Positions 8,791 through 64,000 of a stretch of 64,000 nucleotides of DNA are shown here, one piece after another. The stretch spans positions 32,022-96,021 of the forward strand of contig JANBPK010001210.1 of the NCBI GenBank assembly GCA_027579435.1, written 5' to 3'. The notes under the pieces are model-generated. The model searched no databases. It was not told the DNA's origin and was given only the letters and a program-made list of their open reading frames with translations. The DNA is from Candolleomyces eurysporus. Lineage: Eukaryota; Basidiomycota; Agaricomycetes; Agaricales; Psathyrellaceae. The position numbers and the translations under genes were made by a program. Each line of letters begins with the position of its first letter. The first letter of the stretch is position 1.

Positions 8791-9324
8791 TAGCTCAATC
8801 AAAATTGGATGTCTGGAAGGTTGATTGTAGTATTGCTGAGGCTCGTCATTATAGCCAGAGAAGCTGCAATGTAGCTTGGCTTTTTCCCTTCGTGGCGAGC
8901 GATGGTCTACTATTGTCTTCTTGCCCAGGCAGAGCGGTTGCTGAAGGCCTAGGTTGGCTCAAGAGGCTCACAATCGACCCCATATCATTGCGGGCGAGTT
9001 GACCATGTACTACTCGGAGGAGACGAGCCGATTGTACTTGCAAGGCCACTTGCCATCGGTTCAAGAGAGCAACGCTTGAGCCAAACTGGAGGGCACTCAG
9101 AAGACTATGTGCAGCGAGCGTAATTGCTAGCACTGGTAGTAGTGATAGCTAAGCATCCCTTCACCTTGTGGTAGACGGTATTCTTGAGTGGAATCAATGA
9201 GTGAAAATTGAAAAATCACGGCGAAGCTAATAGGGTAAGGCTACGAGCCAAGAGTAAAAAGAAAACAAGACTTTGGAAGGCAGATCAAGGAGCTGGGAAC
9301 GTGCATTGCGATAACTNAAAACTT
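8791..9324. other. Intergenic region between GH92 and seven-TM copy C
   Basis: The two genes converge here. The open frame as far as 9002 is the read-through of the GH92 frameshift. I see no other conserved content. An N lies at 9317, next to an A-run just past the stop of copy C. Confidence 0.5.
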
Positions 9325-53839: not shown

Positions 53840-54360
53840 GATTTGGTTACAACCGTATGAGGGAGGACTCACAATATAGCCTGCTCGCCTCGAAAAAGCA
53901 GGCAAGAGTAAACTTCAACTCCTCAAGCTCTTCAACACTCTATGAATAGCTCATTGTGAGAAGACACTAGTGAGCTCCTCCCATTCCATGCCTGAGGCCG
54001 CTGGAGAAAGCTCCCCAGGTCACGATTGTTTTTGGGAGCGGGGATGATTTACTGATACCCTTTTCTTGTTCGTCTTGGTGCAACGCTAATAAGGCGATTG
54101 GTTCTGCGAGAACTATCGCCACGGTTTCCGTTGAATGACAATTTGTGAAATGATTCCGAAAAATAAACCACAGACTCACCGTGGAACATGAAGGTGCTCC
54201 CAATCCAGTGAGCGAACGGCGGACAGGGAAGCCGTGAGATTCATGGAGTGAATGACTACAGCCAGCGAAAGCGCACGTCTTCCAACCGGACGCAAGGACC
54301 ATAACGCGTCGATGGCGTCTCCCGTTCAAATTGAATGCGCGCACAGAGACCGAATGTCTG
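53840..54360 (-). pseudogene. Cytochrome P450 remnant with internal deletion
   Basis: Minus strand, in order: a helix C piece (RRHRRVMVLAS), a short Cys/His-rich stretch, the I-helix piece ETVAIVLAEPIALLALHQDE, then SVEELEELKFTLACFFEASR (with the ExxR motif). A damaged relic of the MPED segment comes last. Helix C directly precedes the I-helix, so the region between them is deleted, and the heme loop is absent. Spacing and wording match the intact P450 at 50.3-52.7 kb, so it is a diverged duplicate. Confidence 0.75.
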
Positions 54361-55139
54361 ATGCACTCGGGAAGGATTCAAGCAACTTGAAGAATGTGAT
54401 GAGACGACTCAGGTAGTAGGCCATCAGGAAACCTACAAAATAATTTCGCTCTTTCTGAGACNTTTTGCGCTTTTTTGGTCCATTCCCCCGCCAAATTTGG
54501 CCTAGCTTTTTGCCAAAAATAGCGTCAACTTGTCAACTTTTGACTTTTCAGCTTTTTGCGGCTTGAGGGCGTGTGAGAGCGCTTGAAAAAGTACCAAAAG
54601 AAAATGTTACGTTTACTGATGCACTCACTAGAGGGCGAATCACAGCCGCTGATTTTAAACATGGATACCCAGGTTTCTTCATCTCATTTCTACCACCACC
54701 GCCCCTCGTGCGCCTCATAGAACGGGTCCAGTGACTCGGAGTTTGACTGCAGTTTTGGTGCCTTCACGCCAAACATCTTTGCTTGATGTGTCAGAGTCAG
54801 ATACGCGATCTGAAACATTTAAAACCCTGACCTTCAAACTATTAATCAGCACCTTGGAGCCCTTCAGCCTCATGTTGGTCATTTCTCCCTCTTACACCTA
54901 GGACGGTCAAGGGGCACAAATCACGCTCCTTGTAGCTTGGCATCACCTCCGAGTCCGATCTTCTGGAGTGTCCAGGACGAAGCTTCCTTAGACATCCTAT
55001 AAGAACAACGGGAAATGATGAATCTATCACCAGCACTACCTCAAAATCGGAGCTGCTGCAATGGATGTCCATCACTTAGAAGACTTGATCACCGTAGATG
55101 CTTGTGGAAGCTATGCAAATCGCGCATGGTGGTACTAGA
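54361..55139. other. Gene-free stretch with possible transposon debris
   Basis: There is a low-complexity zone near 54460-54620 (AACTTGTCAACTTTTGACTT) and weak minus-strand frames at 54842-55075. Nothing can be assigned. Confidence 0.35.
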
Positions 55140-55650
55140 CAATGGGTTACTGTGAGCTCGAAGCCTGGTCTGGGTGAATTAGATCCAGTGCTGGTTTGCT
55201 TATCCTCTCAGTTAGTGCCTTGGTCATAACTTTGTAGTCTGTGTTCAGCACAGTAATTGGTCTAAAGTTTGCAATGTTTGTCCTATCTTTTTTCTTGTGA
55301 ATGGGGCACATCCATCCACTGGCAAAGTGGGTCCCCTCCTCAGACCAAGCTCAGGAAAGCAGCTGCATCACCGGAATCTTGTTTCTAACCTGGCTGCTTC
55401 TCATTCAGGGGGTCAGTGGTAAGGGCTTTCCATAGTTCAATAGGGATACCATCCAGACCTGATGCTTTCTCATTTCTAAAAGAAACGATAGCACTGTGGG
55501 GATCGCTAGTGTGCTGCATGCGCACACATGCGCCCACCATTACACATGTCCAGATTAGGGGGATCGCCTCCCTATTTGAGGCACAGTTGCGCACACGGTC
55601 ATATGACCGTCTCCATTCCTCTTGTATCGACTCCTGTTGCCCCAAGTGAC
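55140..55650 (-). mobile_element. LINE reverse transcriptase fragment
   Basis: Minus strand: FRNEKASGLDGIPIELWKAL (start of a non-LTR RT domain), a break, then EEGTHFASGWMCPIHKKKDR and NFRPITVLNTDYKVMTKAL ending LIHPDQAS. These are RT blocks of the LINE type. The YxDD block and the 3' part are missing, and frames change between blocks. It is a dead fragment, separated by the 55695-61351 insertion from another LINE piece. Confidence 0.8.
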
Positions 55651-55685
55651 CTCCAAAGGCATCACACAGGATAACAGAGCTCTGC

Positions 55686-55694
55686 AGGACTCAA
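55686..55694. repeat. Target-site duplication, left copy
   Basis: AGGACTCAA abuts the left inverted repeat and is identical to 61352-61360. Confidence 0.8.
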
Positions 55695-55864
55695 TAGTCT
55701 CGGTTTTCCCAGCCTCTCCCGATTGAGTGACGTCCTAAACAGGACTTCCCATCGTGAGAGTCTGGGCTCTTACCAAGGAAGAAAAGGAGGGGTCAAACTT
55801 CAGTCGCCTTGGTCGTGCTCGGGCATTGCCCGATGCCTTATGTAACCCCCAAATGAGGGCATCG
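55695..55864 (+). repeat. Left terminal inverted repeat (170 bp)
   Basis: It is the reverse complement of 61182-61351 over 170 bases with no indel and 11 mismatches (93.5 percent identity). Inside are small palindromes, GTCCTAAACAGGAC and CGGGCATTGCCCG, that could fold or bind protein. Confidence 0.9.
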
Positions 55865-55938
55865 TGTCACGTCTCTTCCACTAATTACCATGCTTTCATG
55901 CCTCAGTATGCGATAAACTTACTTTAAACACCTGTATT

Positions 55939-58204
55939 ATGGAATCACACACTCTTTTAACCCACAAGACTGCGAAAAAGCGGAAGCTGCCTTCAACATG
56001 GGATGAAAATGACACTGTGGCTCCCACACCTTCCAAGGTTGCACGACAAGCCACTCTCCCCTCTCCCCTAGCCCTTTTCTCCACTCCTTTAACATTTTGG
56101 AACCCCATATTACCTCTACCGCATGCCTCATCAACTACACCTCGCCCTCCTCTGTCTGAAAAGAAGAACCGGCTGACATTTTCCAATGGTTTCATCACAA
56201 AGCCTCAGACACCGTCTCACACACCCTACGCTCTCAAGCAACACGGAAAACATCAGAAAAATCCTCTCACTCTTGCTCCAACCCCTTTCCTGTTGTCTCT
56301 AGAGCCTCTTGGCACAGAAGAATGGAATGCTTTGGCTCGGAGCATCGGAATTCTGATGCCTAACAAGGCATTGCGCGACTTTCAAGTCCAGGCTGCAAAC
56401 TGCATCATACAGCGCCAGGGTTATCTATGTATAATTGCACCCACTGGATCTGGAAAGTCTCTGGTCTGGGTACTGGGACTGGTGGCCCAAAAGGGTGGAA
56501 TCTCGCTCGTTATTGTTCCATACACCAGCCTAGGACTGCAGGGTGAACAACGCAGGTACGTCCCTTTATCTGCTGTTTCTCTTCACAGTTTTAATTGTTT
56601 TCAGCTATGGGGCCCCCGCAATTTCAAGCCACTTTATCTATTCCGAGAACAAGGCACCCGAGCTTCTGGAGAAGGTGGCAAAAGGCCAGGGGATGCAGAT
56701 CGTCTACATATGTCCCGAGATGCTCGAGAGCCCTGCAATTGCCTGCATCCTCCACTCCCTGCCCTTCAAATCTCAGCTCTCGGGGATATTCCTCGATGAA
56801 TCCCATACAGTGCAGGAGAGTAAAACCTGGCGTCCGGCTTATTCAAACCTCCACCTTCTCTGACGAGTTTGCGGACTTGAAGACATGCCCATGGTTGCCC
56901 TTTCTGCTACGTTACCCACCGTATATCGAAACATGTTAACTATGCTTGTCGGATTGAGGCCTGATCATCAATTAATAAATCTTGGAGACTCCAGACCCAA
57001 GCTATCCCTCATAATCAAGAACATGGACCACGATATATCATCATTTCATGACCTTGAATTCTTATTTCCCCCAGCACTTACTCAAGGCCCCGAGTCCATG
57101 GTACTGACAATCATCTTCACCGACAATATAGAACGGCTCACATCAATGTTTTGGTGGTTCCGAGATCAACTGGGCAATCGGGGCCTACCGCTCCATTGGG
57201 TTGACCTCATTCATGCTGGGCTGTCCAAAAGTCACCAAGACTGGAGTACGAAGCGCTTTGCAGCTGGCGAGACTCGCATATGGCTTGGAACAGAGAAGAT
57301 CGGGGCAGGAATTGATTTTCCCCATGTCAAAATTGTCATTCAATACTGCTGTCGAGACCTCACCCTGGTGCAGTGGGAGCAGCGATGTGGCCATGCAGGA
57401 AGAAGCGCTGGTAGCCAGGCTCTTGGGATTCTTCTTGCGGAGAAATCGATGGCAGGTGCTGATGGACGGCCTACAGTCGCATTGCCGGGTTACAAAGATC
57501 CTGGTCTTCTTGAACTCATTCATTCAGAAGCACCAATCTGCTTGACAGCAATTACAAACCAATTGCTTGAGCACCCAGACCCACAAACCCTCCAGCCCTG
57601 CCATACAAGCTGTTCTCACTGCAACCCTGATCTCCTCGCTACGACTCGCTGTTTTGTTTGGGCCCCAATTACATCCCCTACTGGATTTGAAGACACTGGT
57701 TCAAGAACCATGGAAGCCCCAACGGACCACCAGAAGAGGGAGATTATTGCGCAGTTGAATGAATGGCGGCGGAAGGTGTGGACTGACGATTGGAAGGATA
57801 CATGGATTTTGTATGGGCCTGACCATCTCATCTCCGACACCGACATTGCAATTATTTCAATGGCTATCCATCAAATCTGCACGTCGGACGACCTCTATCA
57901 GCGCACTCAAATTTGCCACTTCTCGGAGCTTGCATCTGGCCTTCTCAAAGAAATTGCCAATATACAATGGGAAATTTGGGGAGAACATGTTGAAACCAAC
58001 ACTGATGAAGATTCTGCAAGAACTGTCATACCGGCATCCATGCAGCCACTGCCTGGTCCATACACGCACATCCAGTTTGTCAACAATAGCGCTGATGATC
58101 TGTGTTTACTAGACACCACACCATTGAACCATCACCCTCAGGCACCGAGAGCCACTATTGCTTCGATTCCTCGAGTAGGTTCTGAATTTATTCTTATGTT
58201 TTAA
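55939..58204 (+). CDS. RecQ-like superfamily 2 helicase of the TIR element
   Basis: Exon 1 starts at 55939 with a basic, Pro/Thr-rich N-terminus. Motif 0 is LRDFQVQAANCI, motif I APTGSGKS, motif Ia IVPYTSLGLQGEQR (intron after it, GTACGT to TTTCAG), and motif II FLDESHTVQES. Motif III is ALSATLP, motif IV TIIFTDNIE, motif V WLGTEKIGAGIDFPHV and motif VI QWEQRCGHAGRSAG. A possible Zn site CHTSCSHC follows, then a C-terminal extension. Between motifs II and III (56815-56895) the conserved text KTWRPAYSNLHLL runs into a stop and shifted frames. Either two indels or a 64-bp intron (GTAAAA to GAAG) explains this. The predicted role is DNA unwinding during transposition. Confidence 0.8.
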
Positions 58205-58334
58205 TCACATTCTCTTAATACATTTCTAGTCGTAATCTTTACCAATTAATATATATACCTGGTCCTCCACTTGATTAGCAATCAATATCCTCATCGTCAC
58301 CCTCTGTATAACCCATCCCTATCCAAACGATGTC

Positions 58335-61135
58335 TCAAAGATCACTCCTGCTAATGTCCTCGACAAGATGCCCTTCCCTGAGTTCAAAGCTTGCATCTTT
58401 GGCAATCTCTAACTCTTGGAAAGCATCAGGGTGCCATTGCAACTCTTGTGATTGTGCAATTGTGGCAGCAACATCTTTGTGGTGGCATATGCAAAGGCAA
58501 AGGGCATGTTGAGCAAGATGCTTTGCGTGTCCACCTGTTGGGCCTGATAATCGGCGTAACCTCTCCACAAATAAATCAAAGAATTTCCCACTTGATGCCT
58601 GGTCACAATTGAAACNAAAAAACATTATGCTTCATGAAATACACCAGCAAAATTTTGACATCCTGGTGCTGAGAAACATGGGTATGCTTCTGGTTCTGTG
58701 CTTCGACGTTGAGTTCTTCAAAAAGTCGATCTGTGAAATCTTGAATGTGCCCCATAGCAGGTGTAATCTTCTCTAGGAGGGATGGGCTTGCATTCGAACC
58801 ATGGGCGTGCTCCTTGACACAATCGTTGAGATGTTCAGCTCGGATATCAGTCGGCTTCCAGTCGCCTTGACGGCCCCTTGGATTAACCAACATTGCATTG
58901 GCATTGACCGAGGCCATTGGCTTTGGCCAGTCGTGCTCCAGGTTGTGGAGTAGCTCCATTGTTTTGTTTGCGTAATTATAGCTCTTGGCTGCATAGAAAA
59001 TTGGTAGCCAGGACTTGAGCATCCGAATGACCCAACCAGTGTGCCCTAGCTTGATTGCACTTTGCATTTCTCGCAACAGCATGAGCATATAGAATAGTTG
59101 AACCACATTCGAGCAGATTGTGTTCCCAGGAACTGATTTGATGCCTGTTGCTTCAAGGCGGCTGGTAGATTGAGCCATGAAGCTGTCTACAATTGCCGCT
59201 GAATGTTGGAGAAGGGCTTCAACTGTGGTAACGTCCGATTGCAGCTGCTTCTCAAGCTCGTGGTGTGAAGACGCTCCTAATAGTGTGGCAGATCCTTTAG
59301 GGGCAAGCAACCGTAGCACGACATCCAGGAATCGAAGCCAGCCATAGTAATCGACCTTCTGAAGTTGGATGTTGTTGCGGTTTGGAAGCTGATCACGAAG
59401 ATTGGCCAGGCTTAATGGATCGCTTGATGCCGTTGTCCCCCAAAATACCCCGCCAATCGCCTGAATATAGTTGAGACAGTAGTGCATGAGGCTGCTGATC
59501 ATGCCAAATGACGACAAGTGATCAAATTGATGCTCTGAAAGGTCCACCACACGCTGATCCTGTGCTGCATGGTCCCAGGCAGTGGTAAGTCGGTCTCCGA
59601 GGATGGTATGTACTGTAATCTCGGATGTTGACTTTGGTATTTGAAGAACCTTGGTAAAATAATGTTCCAGGACAGCCATATTACCGTGGATGGATCCCTG
59701 TTCCTGATCGAAGGTTGGGAGATAATATTCTTCCGTTTTGTGAGTTGGGATAGCCTTTGGGTCTGTAAAAACCGGTATTTTGGATCCAAAGGTTGAAACT
59801 GACAATAATTCCTTGGCGAGCATTTGAGCAACATGCAGTATAGCATTTCGGCAAAACTCCTGGTGGTCTTCAAGGGATGGTTAGATATCTGCCAGCGCTT
59901 TCTGTGGCGGCAGTTCATGACGTCGGCCTTCCATTGCCTTGAGTGAATCAACACTCATGATTTGCTGTGCCGTCAATCCTTCAGTTCCCTCCCCCACTGG
60001 TGGTGCAATGACGAGGAGAGCAGACACTTGATCATGCTGCACAGAGCCATGCAGTGCGGATGCTTCATGTGCTTTTTTGACCCAGTTAAAATTGTCATAG
60101 GGGAAGATTTCGACGGGTTGTTGGCGCCTGCACGGGCCTGAGCAATAGAATCTTTGCCCAAACATAAAACCGCACGGCATTGGAACGGATACAAGGCTGT
60201 GACTCCAAGCCAATTCAGGGCAATGACACATCGCTTTGGGACCCAATTGTCCCACATGAGCAAGGAATTCATTGAAGCGTGATAATTCGTTCAACGGCTT
60301 CAAAGGTTCAGCAAAACTGAATTAACCAGAGTGCGCCCCTGCATCCAATAAGTGACAAATAATATCAATGAAGCTGTAAATGACGCACCTGATCAGGGTT
60401 GCGAGATCCAGGCTTGATTGTCTTCTTATCCTTTGCAATAACACCCTTCAAAATCCTCTGAAGATGGGGTAGTGTCTGATCATAGACTTCCTGCAAATCC
60501 GCAAGACGGAACCCTTGTACCGTCTTGACCGACACAGCTGTTGCAGAAACTCAAAGCGCAGCAGCATTCTTGCTGAATGGACCATCCGATGCTTTGTCCG
60601 TCATGAAGCCGGCCTCCTTTGCGCATATTGTGGCTGCGCTGCTAATAACCCAATCAGTTGTTGCAGCCTTTCCTTCCTTGACCATCGTCTTCACTTTCTT
60701 TGGTTCTTTGTCACCCTTTCCATTCAACCAGAGCTCCATAACTGGGATGTGAGATTTCTCAACAAGAAATTTATTGGAATATGCTGTTACTACAGGGGAG
60801 TTGGTCCGGAACATTGTTACAATCAATGTCGAGAACGAGAAGTGAGGGATGCTCAAGATCCACTGAAAGGCAAGCCAGGTCTTGTGTTCAAGGCTCATAG
60901 GTGAGCTGCGAGTGCGTGCCGAGCGTGGCTCCATGTATTCGAAATCCCCTTCGAGGTCTTCGGGAAGGTCTGGCAGGTCTCCGAAGGGTATACCGTCGGT
61001 GTCGCTAGATGGCAGCTCAGGATGACTTGAGCATGGCGAAGAGTACTGGGCCGGTGAACTGATGGCCTCGGACTCGTCAAAATTGTCACTGAACAATAAC
61101 CCAGCCTCCCAGCGACGAGTGTTGTATGAGTTCAT
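58335..61135 (-). pseudogene. DUF6589-type protein gene of the TIR element, broken
   Basis: It starts at 61135 (MNSYNTRRWEAGLLFSDNF). The N-terminal helical part reads TWLAFQWILSIPHFSFSTLI, and RNPDQ precedes an intron. The core holds WVPKRCVIALNWLGVT, PYDNFNWVKKAHEAS, TILGDRLTTAW and HYCLNYIQAIGGVFWG; the end has WLPIFYAAKSYNYANK, DWPKPMASVNANAMLVNPRG and a His/Cys-rich tail. Breaks are a TGA at 60551-60553, a frame change near 60115 and a TAA at 59881-59883. N58616 beside a T-run also shifts frame; removed, it reads NVFCFNCDQASSG through to the stop at 58335. DUF6589 is known to me as a fungal domain without assigned chemistry. Confidence 0.75.
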
Positions 61136-61181
61136 GGCGGACGGAGAGTGTAAGACGCAAATTTAAGATGATAAGATATAT

Positions 61182-61351
61182 CGATGCCCTTGTTTGGGGG
61201 TTACATAAGGCGTCGGGCAATGCCCGAGCACAACCGAGGCGACCAAAGTTTGACCCCTCCTTTTCTTCCTTGGTAAGAGCCCAGACTCTCACAATGGGAA
61301 GTCCTGTTTAGGACGTTGCTCAATCGGGAGAGGCTGGGAAAACCAAGACTA
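61182..61351 (-). repeat. Right terminal inverted repeat (170 bp)
   Basis: This is the partner of 55695-55864. The outer end is CCAAGACTA and the inner border CGATGCCC. Confidence 0.9.
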
Positions 61352-61360
61352 AGGACTCAA
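61352..61360. repeat. Target-site duplication, right copy
   Basis: AGGACTCAA, identical to 55686-55694. Confidence 0.8.
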
Positions 61361-61689
61361 CTCCTGACCAGTGGTTGAGGCTGCCGAGGTTATTTCATGT
61401 GTTTTTTTATAGCTTAGTTTAGGGTACTTAGTATAGACTCAGGAGACAAGTTCTCCTCAGTTGGATTCCCCCTTTTTGTTTTTCCTCTCACTCTCTCTCC
61501 TTTTATCTAAAACTCAACTCAATAACATTGTATTTTCGCTTTTTTCTATCTATCAAGTCTACGCTGCTTGAGGACAACGGCTTAGGACCCTCTTGAGCTA
61601 TCCGGTTTCTCCCTTATGCACTTGAGAGGGATTACCTCTCTACAGCACACCTGATTCCATCTGTTGTGAGGGGGGTATCAAGATCTTTT
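61361..61689. other. Non-coding sequence between the TIR element and LINE endonuclease piece
   Basis: T-rich and CT-rich sequence without a gene. The minus strand near 61640-61700 keeps LDTPLTTDGI-like text of the LINE linker. Confidence 0.4.
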
Positions 61690-61930
61690 GTCTGCTCCAC
61701 TGTCAGTGAGTGGTCTAGTGCACTGAGTACCTCCTTCTTAATTCTTCTACTGCAGTTGCATTGTCTTTGTGGGCTGGGATCCTATCAATTGCATCTTCTA
61801 CAATATTAAAATCCCCCAGCATGAAGTCTGGTTTGGGGATATTTCTCTTCCTAAAAATTGGAGCAAGATCTGCAAAACACTCAGTTGCACACATACTACT
61901 GGGTCTAAACAAGCAGTAATCACAATTCAA
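61690..61930 (-). mobile_element. LINE endonuclease-domain fragment
   Basis: The minus strand reads DLAPIFRKRNIPKPDFMLGD then FNIVEDAIDRIPAHKDN. The GDFN block is the hallmark of the AP-endonuclease-like domain of non-LTR retrotransposons. It lies upstream, in LINE direction, of the RT fragment at 55.14-55.65 kb. Together they suggest one LINE split by the TIR element and eroded elsewhere. Confidence 0.75.
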
Positions 61931-64000
61931 TTATCCTTGGGACAGTAGCGCCTTCCTACCACCCGGTATTTAACATGAACGACTCGGATAGCAGAAGGGG
62001 TACCAAAATGCTTGAGAGATACAGTCAGAATCTGCAAGGGTCAAGTTTGCCTGGCTGCCTCTCCTCACGCCACAATTTCTTGACTGAATAATGAATGGGC
62101 AGACTTGCTGGGACATCGTGAAGGCATACAACCTTTCGGCGCCCATGTAATAGAGATAATTTACCGGATACATAGAAGCTCACATCATGTTGACGTGTCT
62201 CTCGAGGGATTGTACAGTTGATGTGGTGTTGCGGCGTAGAACGCTGGGAGGACCTCAAGCTTTGCCAACTGTCCTGAGGAACCGTGAGCGAGACCAAGTG
62301 CATATTTTACTTTGCCTTGAGGCGGGGCATTGACACTCTACCTCGTGGGATCAATTCTCAATTACACTAAGAAGGACCAGATATGGTCAGAAATACCAGC
62401 CTACTAAACAAGTAATTGACATTCCGGAAGTATTCGGGAACCTTGGAGTTAGTCAAGACCCGGGTGCTGGTCTCTCTGAAGCTACGGCGTTTTCAACTCC
62501 CGAGTCTTGACTTGGGTGTTGTCGTCAAGTTCAAGTTGCTGCTGCCACTCTGGGTCATGGGTAAATGAGTGGTTGAACCCAAGCCCATGAGGCAATTCCT
62601 GATCGATGCAGCTCGTCACCATCGTCGTAAGTCCTAATCTTGCTCTGGACTTGTCTCAGAGATGCAAGACCATTTGGGATGCGAGGACGGCGTGGAGGAC
62701 AGCTTGAGGACTTCAGCGCCAGTCAATTCATTGTGATTCTGAATGAGCATCATGAAATTATGAGTGAGAGTTGGTGGAGGTGATGTACATGGTTGTCATG
62801 GGCGAAAGCTGAGGCTGAAGATTCGAATGTTATAGTGAGGTAAAGTGAATAAGGGCGTGTGTGCTTGATTGAAGAGATCAAGACATACGGCAGAAGCGGG
62901 AAGTATGATCCCATTCAACAAAGTCATTACTGCATATAAGGGGAATAGAAATCAGAGCAAAGTCACACAAAGGAAGGCCATATGGAGTTACGCACATGCA
63001 ATAATCACCAGATAAAATACACCATCACGGTAGATAATCTGAACCAGCCTATTCTCTGTTGAGAGCCAGTGGTGTCAGAAACCAAACCATAGGCAAAGAG
63101 CCGCAGTTACTGCATGGAATTAGCCAAATATCAACACTGGAGAAGGATCACACGGAAATCAAACTCACAGACACCGTTATACATAACAAGAATTGCGCAA
63201 ATCATCAAGAATATGTGCCCGTTGTCAACAAGCATACAGGAGCCGGTTGGCATTCCTGGTGTTGGTACATCTGCAGGATGAAAATGCGTTCGCTCGGTGA
63301 TGAGATCGGTGCTGCCGAGCCCAGAAACACACACACAAAACACCAACCACAACCTATAAACAAGTTGTGTATAGTCAAGCGGTGCGAGAGAGTCAGGCCG
63401 CACAAGGTCAATGTGCGAGTTTGTGGGGGTTATAGAGTGAATTAAGAATACTAAGTTCTCTTGTTCTCTCTTTGATACACTCCACAGAACCTAGAAGTAC
63501 CCTAGTGTACAGCTAGTGAGATTCCTATTCCCAAGTAGTCAAGCCTTGTGACTGCTTAAGTGCCTAAGTTCCAAAATAAACTGATAGTTCACGCCATGTG
63601 AAGTATGAGCAGAAAACTTGATAGATCCGTCGGTAAACGCAAGTAAAGATAAAACAACAATGATATGATGATGCCGCTCGAGTCCGTAGTTAGCGTATAT
63701 ATATACTACTTCGAGCCGCTTAAAATAGATAGAGAGACACATGTGATAGATAAGTTCATAGCCAATAATAAGAGTCCAAGCAAAAGATAAAGAGAAAATA
63801 GAACCGGGTATTGGTAGAGGCCGCGCCAAGATTGTAGCCGTGCGAGTCAGGCGCGCCTCTGGACGCCAGATTTAGATCACCATTTCCTTTCTGGTGAAGC
63901 CACGTGAGATGCCGACTGATGATCGAGAGTGGACGGGCATCCTTGCTCTGCGTCCCCTACTCTCGTCGCTAGTCTCAAGCCGCTTGGACAGGTATGGTTG
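61931..64000. other. Gene-free end of the window
   Basis: Short open frames occur on both strands (for example 63059-63445 plus and 63131-63403 minus), but none shows a family signature or splice-supported extension. A TATATATATA stretch lies near 63697. A gene truncated by the window end cannot be excluded. Confidence 0.35.

Follow-up and report, generated by a model that had tools for sequence, protein, structure and literature searches.

A low-copy mushroom DNA transposon encoding a DUF6589 protein and a RecQ-like helicase, probably of the AcademH type

The element and its insertion site

The window analysed here is a stretch of 64,000 nucleotides from Candolleomyces eurysporus (contig JANBPK010001210.1, positions 32,022 to 96,021), and all positions without a contig name refer to it. 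At 55695-61351 it contains a genuine mushroom DNA transposon, 5,657 bp long and sharply delimited, which starts TAGTCTCGG and has the inverted repeat at its other end. The element encodes a RecQ-like helicase on the forward strand and, convergent with it on the reverse strand, a protein of the Pfam family DUF6589. Its features are as follows.

55686..55694: left target site duplication, 9 bp, AGGACTCAA, directly outside the element
55695..55864, forward strand: left terminal inverted repeat, 170 bp, starts TAGTCTCGGTTTTCCCAGCC (from repeat comparison)
55939..58204, forward strand: RecQ-family superfamily 2 (SF2) helicase gene, with exons predicted at 55939-56555 and 56605-58204
58275..61135, reverse strand: DUF6589 gene, likely a DDE transposase, predicted intron 60388-60339, Pfam DUF6589 4.8e-79
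61182..61351, reverse strand: right terminal inverted repeat (from repeat comparison)
61352..61360: right target site duplication, 9 bp, AGGACTCAA, directly outside the element

Of the 170 positions of the inverted repeats, 159 are identical between the two and the other 11 differ by transitions; a repeat finder returned the same repeats as 177 nt at 92%. Among 200,000 random pairs drawn in the window, five gave a 9-bp border match by chance. A stretch of contig C1288 (17132-17731) matches the joined flanks at 97% identity, unbroken across the junction and with a single AGGACTCAA, and the contig is collinear with the host DNA of the window, also at 97%, over 1.8 kb on each side of the element. 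Because this match and the collinearity cross the junction without the element, C1288 represents an empty site, which is either allelic to the window locus or a duplicate of it. Further copies of the host sequence, 70-72% identical, also span the insertion junction; of four distant ones inspected, three have a single AGGACTCAA and one a single-base variant of it. Thus the precise ends, paired 170-bp repeats and 9-bp duplication proposed in an earlier reading made from the letters of the window (the sequence-only reading) have the exact coordinates given there, and an empty site has been found.

The left flank (55200-55500) looks by eye like the reverse strand of a long interspersed nuclear element (LINE) reverse transcriptase, and further copies of the host sequence, about 70% identical, occur in the genome. 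C1288 and window positions 53890-63166 are near-identical on separate contigs, as are C986 and C722, which suggests either that both haplotypes were kept in the assembly or that recent duplications have occurred.

The helicase has Pfam DEAD (2.5e-6) and Helicase_C (1.1e-10) domains, and its nearest solved relatives are BLM, RECQ5, WRN and bacterial RecQ, in agreement with the proposal that a RecQ-like helicase and a DUF6589 gene converge inside one unit bounded by terminal inverted repeats. What we take to be its helicase motifs are Walker A (APTGSGKS, 56437-56460), DESH (56795-56806), SATLP (56903-56917) and motif VI (57380-57406). The element had also been called complete. This holds for its ends, which are both present, but not for its coding capacity: the helicase reading is interrupted by one in-frame TGA (56861-56863), and the DUF6589 gene by four in-frame stops (one a TGA at 60553-60551) and two frame breaks, one of them near an N at 58616. 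Compared with a second copy on contig C1101, the window element differs at 165 sites, 155 of them by transitions. At 113 transition sites a CpG is kept only in the C1101 copy and at 10 only in the window copy, a strong loss of CpG from the latter and the pattern expected of cytosine methylation and decay. Judged from its sequence, the window copy is decayed, and its genes probably no longer yield working proteins.

The DUF6589 protein and its predicted fold

DUF6589 proteins were gathered in three homolog searches, from which 110 of 110, the best 120 of 338 and the best 120 of 204 matches were taken. Each of the three groups, defined by the search that returned its members, is monophyletic in a midpoint-rooted tree of 173 proteins. 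Among the matches listed, every homolog inspected that had a named source is presumably from an Agaricomycete. The candidate active site is listed below in the numbering of a homolog, P0001.

60094..60096, reverse strand: first candidate catalytic Asp codon (YDN motif; D61)
59593..59595, reverse strand: second candidate catalytic Asp codon (GDRLT motif; D228)
59482..59484, reverse strand: conserved His codon (GxxH motif; H265)
58963..58965, reverse strand: candidate catalytic Glu position (E428), AAA (Lys) here and Glu in the C1101 copy

The three candidate acidic residues of the DDE triad are 96-99% conserved across the 173 proteins. In P0001, the Pfam DUF6589 match leaves D61 outside. All 57 proteins of the window's group match DUF6589 in a Pfam scan, in which no other family appears in more than one protein and no hAT family appears; the protein of a relative on contig C605 gave DUF6589 and one match below the cut-off. 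A search of PDB sequences with a profile of 57 DUF6589 proteins found no match up to E 10, and fold comparison was therefore needed. AlphaFold models were obtained for two DUF6589 lineages, one confident and one weak, and Foldseek candidates were re-examined with VIA-align. The models match the transposases Hermes, P-element, IS256-type and RAG1, the best being Hermes, and ISCth4 is also among the matches. In the predicted fold the three conserved acidic residues occupy the places expected of a DDE triad. The GDRLT Asp and the helix with the His belong to the predicted core. This agrees with the sequence-only reading, which had envisaged DUF6589 as an RNase H-like transposase with the GDRLT Asp and the His-bearing helix that follows it in the core, and had looked to a predicted structure for such a fold.

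Judging from these models and the conserved residues, the DUF6589 protein is very probably the transposase of the element. Its identification as a DDE transposase may be a new addition: in the literature searched, no relevant paper was found under the name DUF6589 or the accessions PF20231 and IPR046496, the match to PF20231 being an optics paper.

Copies and relatives in the genome

The window family has at least three copies, this and the other counts for the family being lower bounds. The C1101 copy (111280-123572) is 96.5% identical to the window element but is interrupted close to the right end by a 6.6-kb insert; its outer borders were checked for a duplication and none was seen. The third, on C1063 (60571-61530), is a 960-bp deletion derivative with ATTTGGTCC on both sides. 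The duplication is thus 9 bp in two of the three copies found.

More widely, searching the genome gave DUF6589 matches on 12 contigs. On half of these (C217, C1101, C605, C1158, C479 and C1154) a convergent helicase lies beside the DUF6589 gene, so that the two genes recur as a unit. No helicase was found in the stretches examined of the remaining six (C1179, C136, C986, C722, C265 and C114), where the DUF6589 matches are partial, stop-interrupted or near a contig end. Besides the window element, five insertions could be bounded, with duplications of 9 bp in three and 8 bp in two. The former are the C1063 derivative, the C479 element (L042:3172-9008; repeats of some 125 bp with 77% identity; duplication GGGTTCTGG) and a pair of ends on C330 and C1131 that have the 9-bp GGTGGGAGA in common and would represent one copy split by the assembly. 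The latter are the C605 element (5,741 bp; identical 143-bp repeats; duplication CGCAGTCC) and the C1158 element (L040:1727-7649; duplication TAAAAGCC). The duplications are 9 bp in both insertions of the related C479 lineage (one split across contigs) and 8 bp in both of the related C605/C1158 lineage. Ends were looked for at the C1154 element and none were found.

A subterminal motif, AACGTCTGGTGC..TTCG, occurs at both ends of the C1158 element (L040 1813-1830 and 7551-7568) and in the C605 element (L041 near 470-487), and is a candidate transposase binding site. The C479 element is nested in another inverted-repeat element, whose termini are TACAGTGGTTTGC (L042:1796-1880 and 9010-9095). On C986 and C722, short inverted repeats surround a decayed DUF6589 fragment, and on C986, the one scanned for this, they also enclose a TPR/NACHT-like gene. 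These short-repeat borders showed no duplication. NACHT/NPHP3 genes, one with TPRs, adjoin DUF6589 fragments on C1179 and C986 (L039:3890-5269 and L045:1713-4184). The 6.6-kb insert in the C1101 copy (C1101:116773-123397; L008/L009) has NDC10_II and GCR1_C domains and is likely to be a Crypton-like tyrosine recombinase element. Another open reading frame in this insert has no Pfam match but resembles, by eye, an XPG/GEN1-type nuclease.

Class and mode of transposition

AcademH is said to be the helicase-encoding lineage of Academ, an account known to us through papers that cite Kojima's work of 2020 in Mob DNA (11:15). Target site duplications are given as 9 or 10 bp for AcademH and 3 or 4 bp for AcademX, which belongs to the same superfamily but has a nuclease instead of a helicase, and these lengths are tied to the nuclease or helicase encoded (PMC10045372). 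AcademH is low-copy in Basidiomycota, Ascomycota and Mucoromycota, and DEAD and Helicase_C domains are credited jointly to AcademH, KolobokH or Helitron (PMC10799480). Academ is listed among the superfamilies with a DDD/E transposase (PMC9587614), and in bivalves, where it is counted among the DDE/D-domain superfamilies, its mean length is 5,565 bp (PMC10294476). Putative non-autonomous Academ elements have been described in a mushroom (PMC8290104).

The window element resembles AcademH in encoding a helicase beside its transposase, in the 9-bp duplications of its own family and of the C479 lineage, and in its low copy number in a member of the Basidiomycota. A DDD/E transposase would be a further likeness, as suggested by the predicted fold and the conserved acidic residues. 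The 8-bp duplications of the C605/C1158 sister lineage lie outside the stated 9-10 bp and weigh against this assignment. Overall, the element is considered to be a low-copy AcademH-type DNA transposon with a DUF6589 transposase and a RecQ-like helicase, with a probability of about 0.82; membership is strongly indicated but not proven, the comparison being with published descriptions rather than with Academ sequences. The sequence-only reading could name no class for it. A match to a named superfamily, one of the outcomes which that reading had set against its own proposal, has now been found with AcademH by description, and the element is most likely a further example of that class, not a new kind of mobile element. 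The lineage with 8-bp duplications may be an addition to the known class.

The pairing of DUF6589 with RecQ could instead mark an unnamed superfamily separate from Academ, which is distinctly unlikely. It would accommodate the duplication lengths, 8 and 9 bp where 9-10 bp is stated for AcademH, and the lack of any paper on DUF6589 in the literature searched, and AcademH has been compared by description; but the helicase, the 9-bp duplication and the low-copy occurrence in basidiomycetes all match the printed account of AcademH. Improbable too is a fuller version, in which a superfamily distinct from Academ, with 8- and 9-bp lineages, would couple a hAT- or P-like DDE transposase with RecQ in strand-displacing copy-out. 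A divergent hAT element is highly improbable. The best match of the models is to Hermes, a hAT transposase, with which they share a predicted RNase H core interrupted by an insertion that is largely helical, and a conserved His between the second Asp and the Glu (GxxH in DUF6589). However, the P element, IS256-type and RAG1 transposases match too, and the fold is therefore not specific to hAT; among the 57 proteins scanned, no Pfam family other than DUF6589 was matched by two or more, with no Pfam-level sequence match between hAT and DUF6589; and hAT elements are not known to include a helicase. The duplication in the window family is 9 bp, compared with a usual 8 bp in hAT and 5-7 bp in its sublineages (PMC12730594).

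Helitrons have neither inverted repeats nor a target duplication, and are ruled out by the presence of both in the window element. Zisupton/KDZ, with 8-bp duplications, was set aside because of the Pfam results given above for the window's group and for the C605 protein. KolobokH, a fungi-only Kolobok lineage that encodes a RecQ helicase, was raised by that helicase, as the window element is likewise fungal and combines a RecQ-family helicase and a predicted DDE transposase; moreover, a red-alga Kolobok outside KolobokH has RecQ on the complementary strand, as does the window element (PMC9587614). The helicase here is, however, a separate convergent gene on the opposite strand. Kolobok duplications are the 4-bp TTAA (PMC9587614), whereas those found here are 8-9 bp without TTAA (AGGACTCAA, ATTTGGTCC, GGGTTCTGG, CGCAGTCC and TAAAAGCC). 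KolobokH is ruled out by this difference, and next to no credence is given to it.

For the AcademH-type element, a cut-and-paste mechanism of excision is proposed. Acting as a DDE transposase of the RNase H-like type, DUF6589 would bind the long inverted repeats, cut the element ends and join them to target DNA, where a 9-bp stagger would give rise to the 9-bp duplication. The convergently encoded RecQ-like helicase most probably serves to unwind or remodel DNA while the element is excised, strands are transferred or gaps are repaired. A replicative copy-out route, of the kind that the sequence-only reading took the helicase to suggest, which concerns mechanism and is compatible with any of the class identities considered, is unlikely but deserves some weight. 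In such a route the transposase would nick one strand at each end, the helicase would peel the strand away and replication would restore the donor. The helicase encoded in the element speaks for it, as does the presence among the fold matches of ISCth4, described as a copy-out transposase (PMC7780238). Against it, the window family has few copies (at least two long and at least one short derivative), and the observations fit cut-and-paste equally.

These results connect a Pfam family of unknown function, which has hundreds of members in mushrooms, with the DDE transposase fold predicted by the models and with a helicase-bearing class of transposons. The DUF6589 match in Pfam apparently omits the first candidate catalytic Asp of the homolog that was modelled. 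The bounded copies from lineages with 8-bp and 9-bp duplications provide material for probing what a RecQ helicase does when a transposon carries it.
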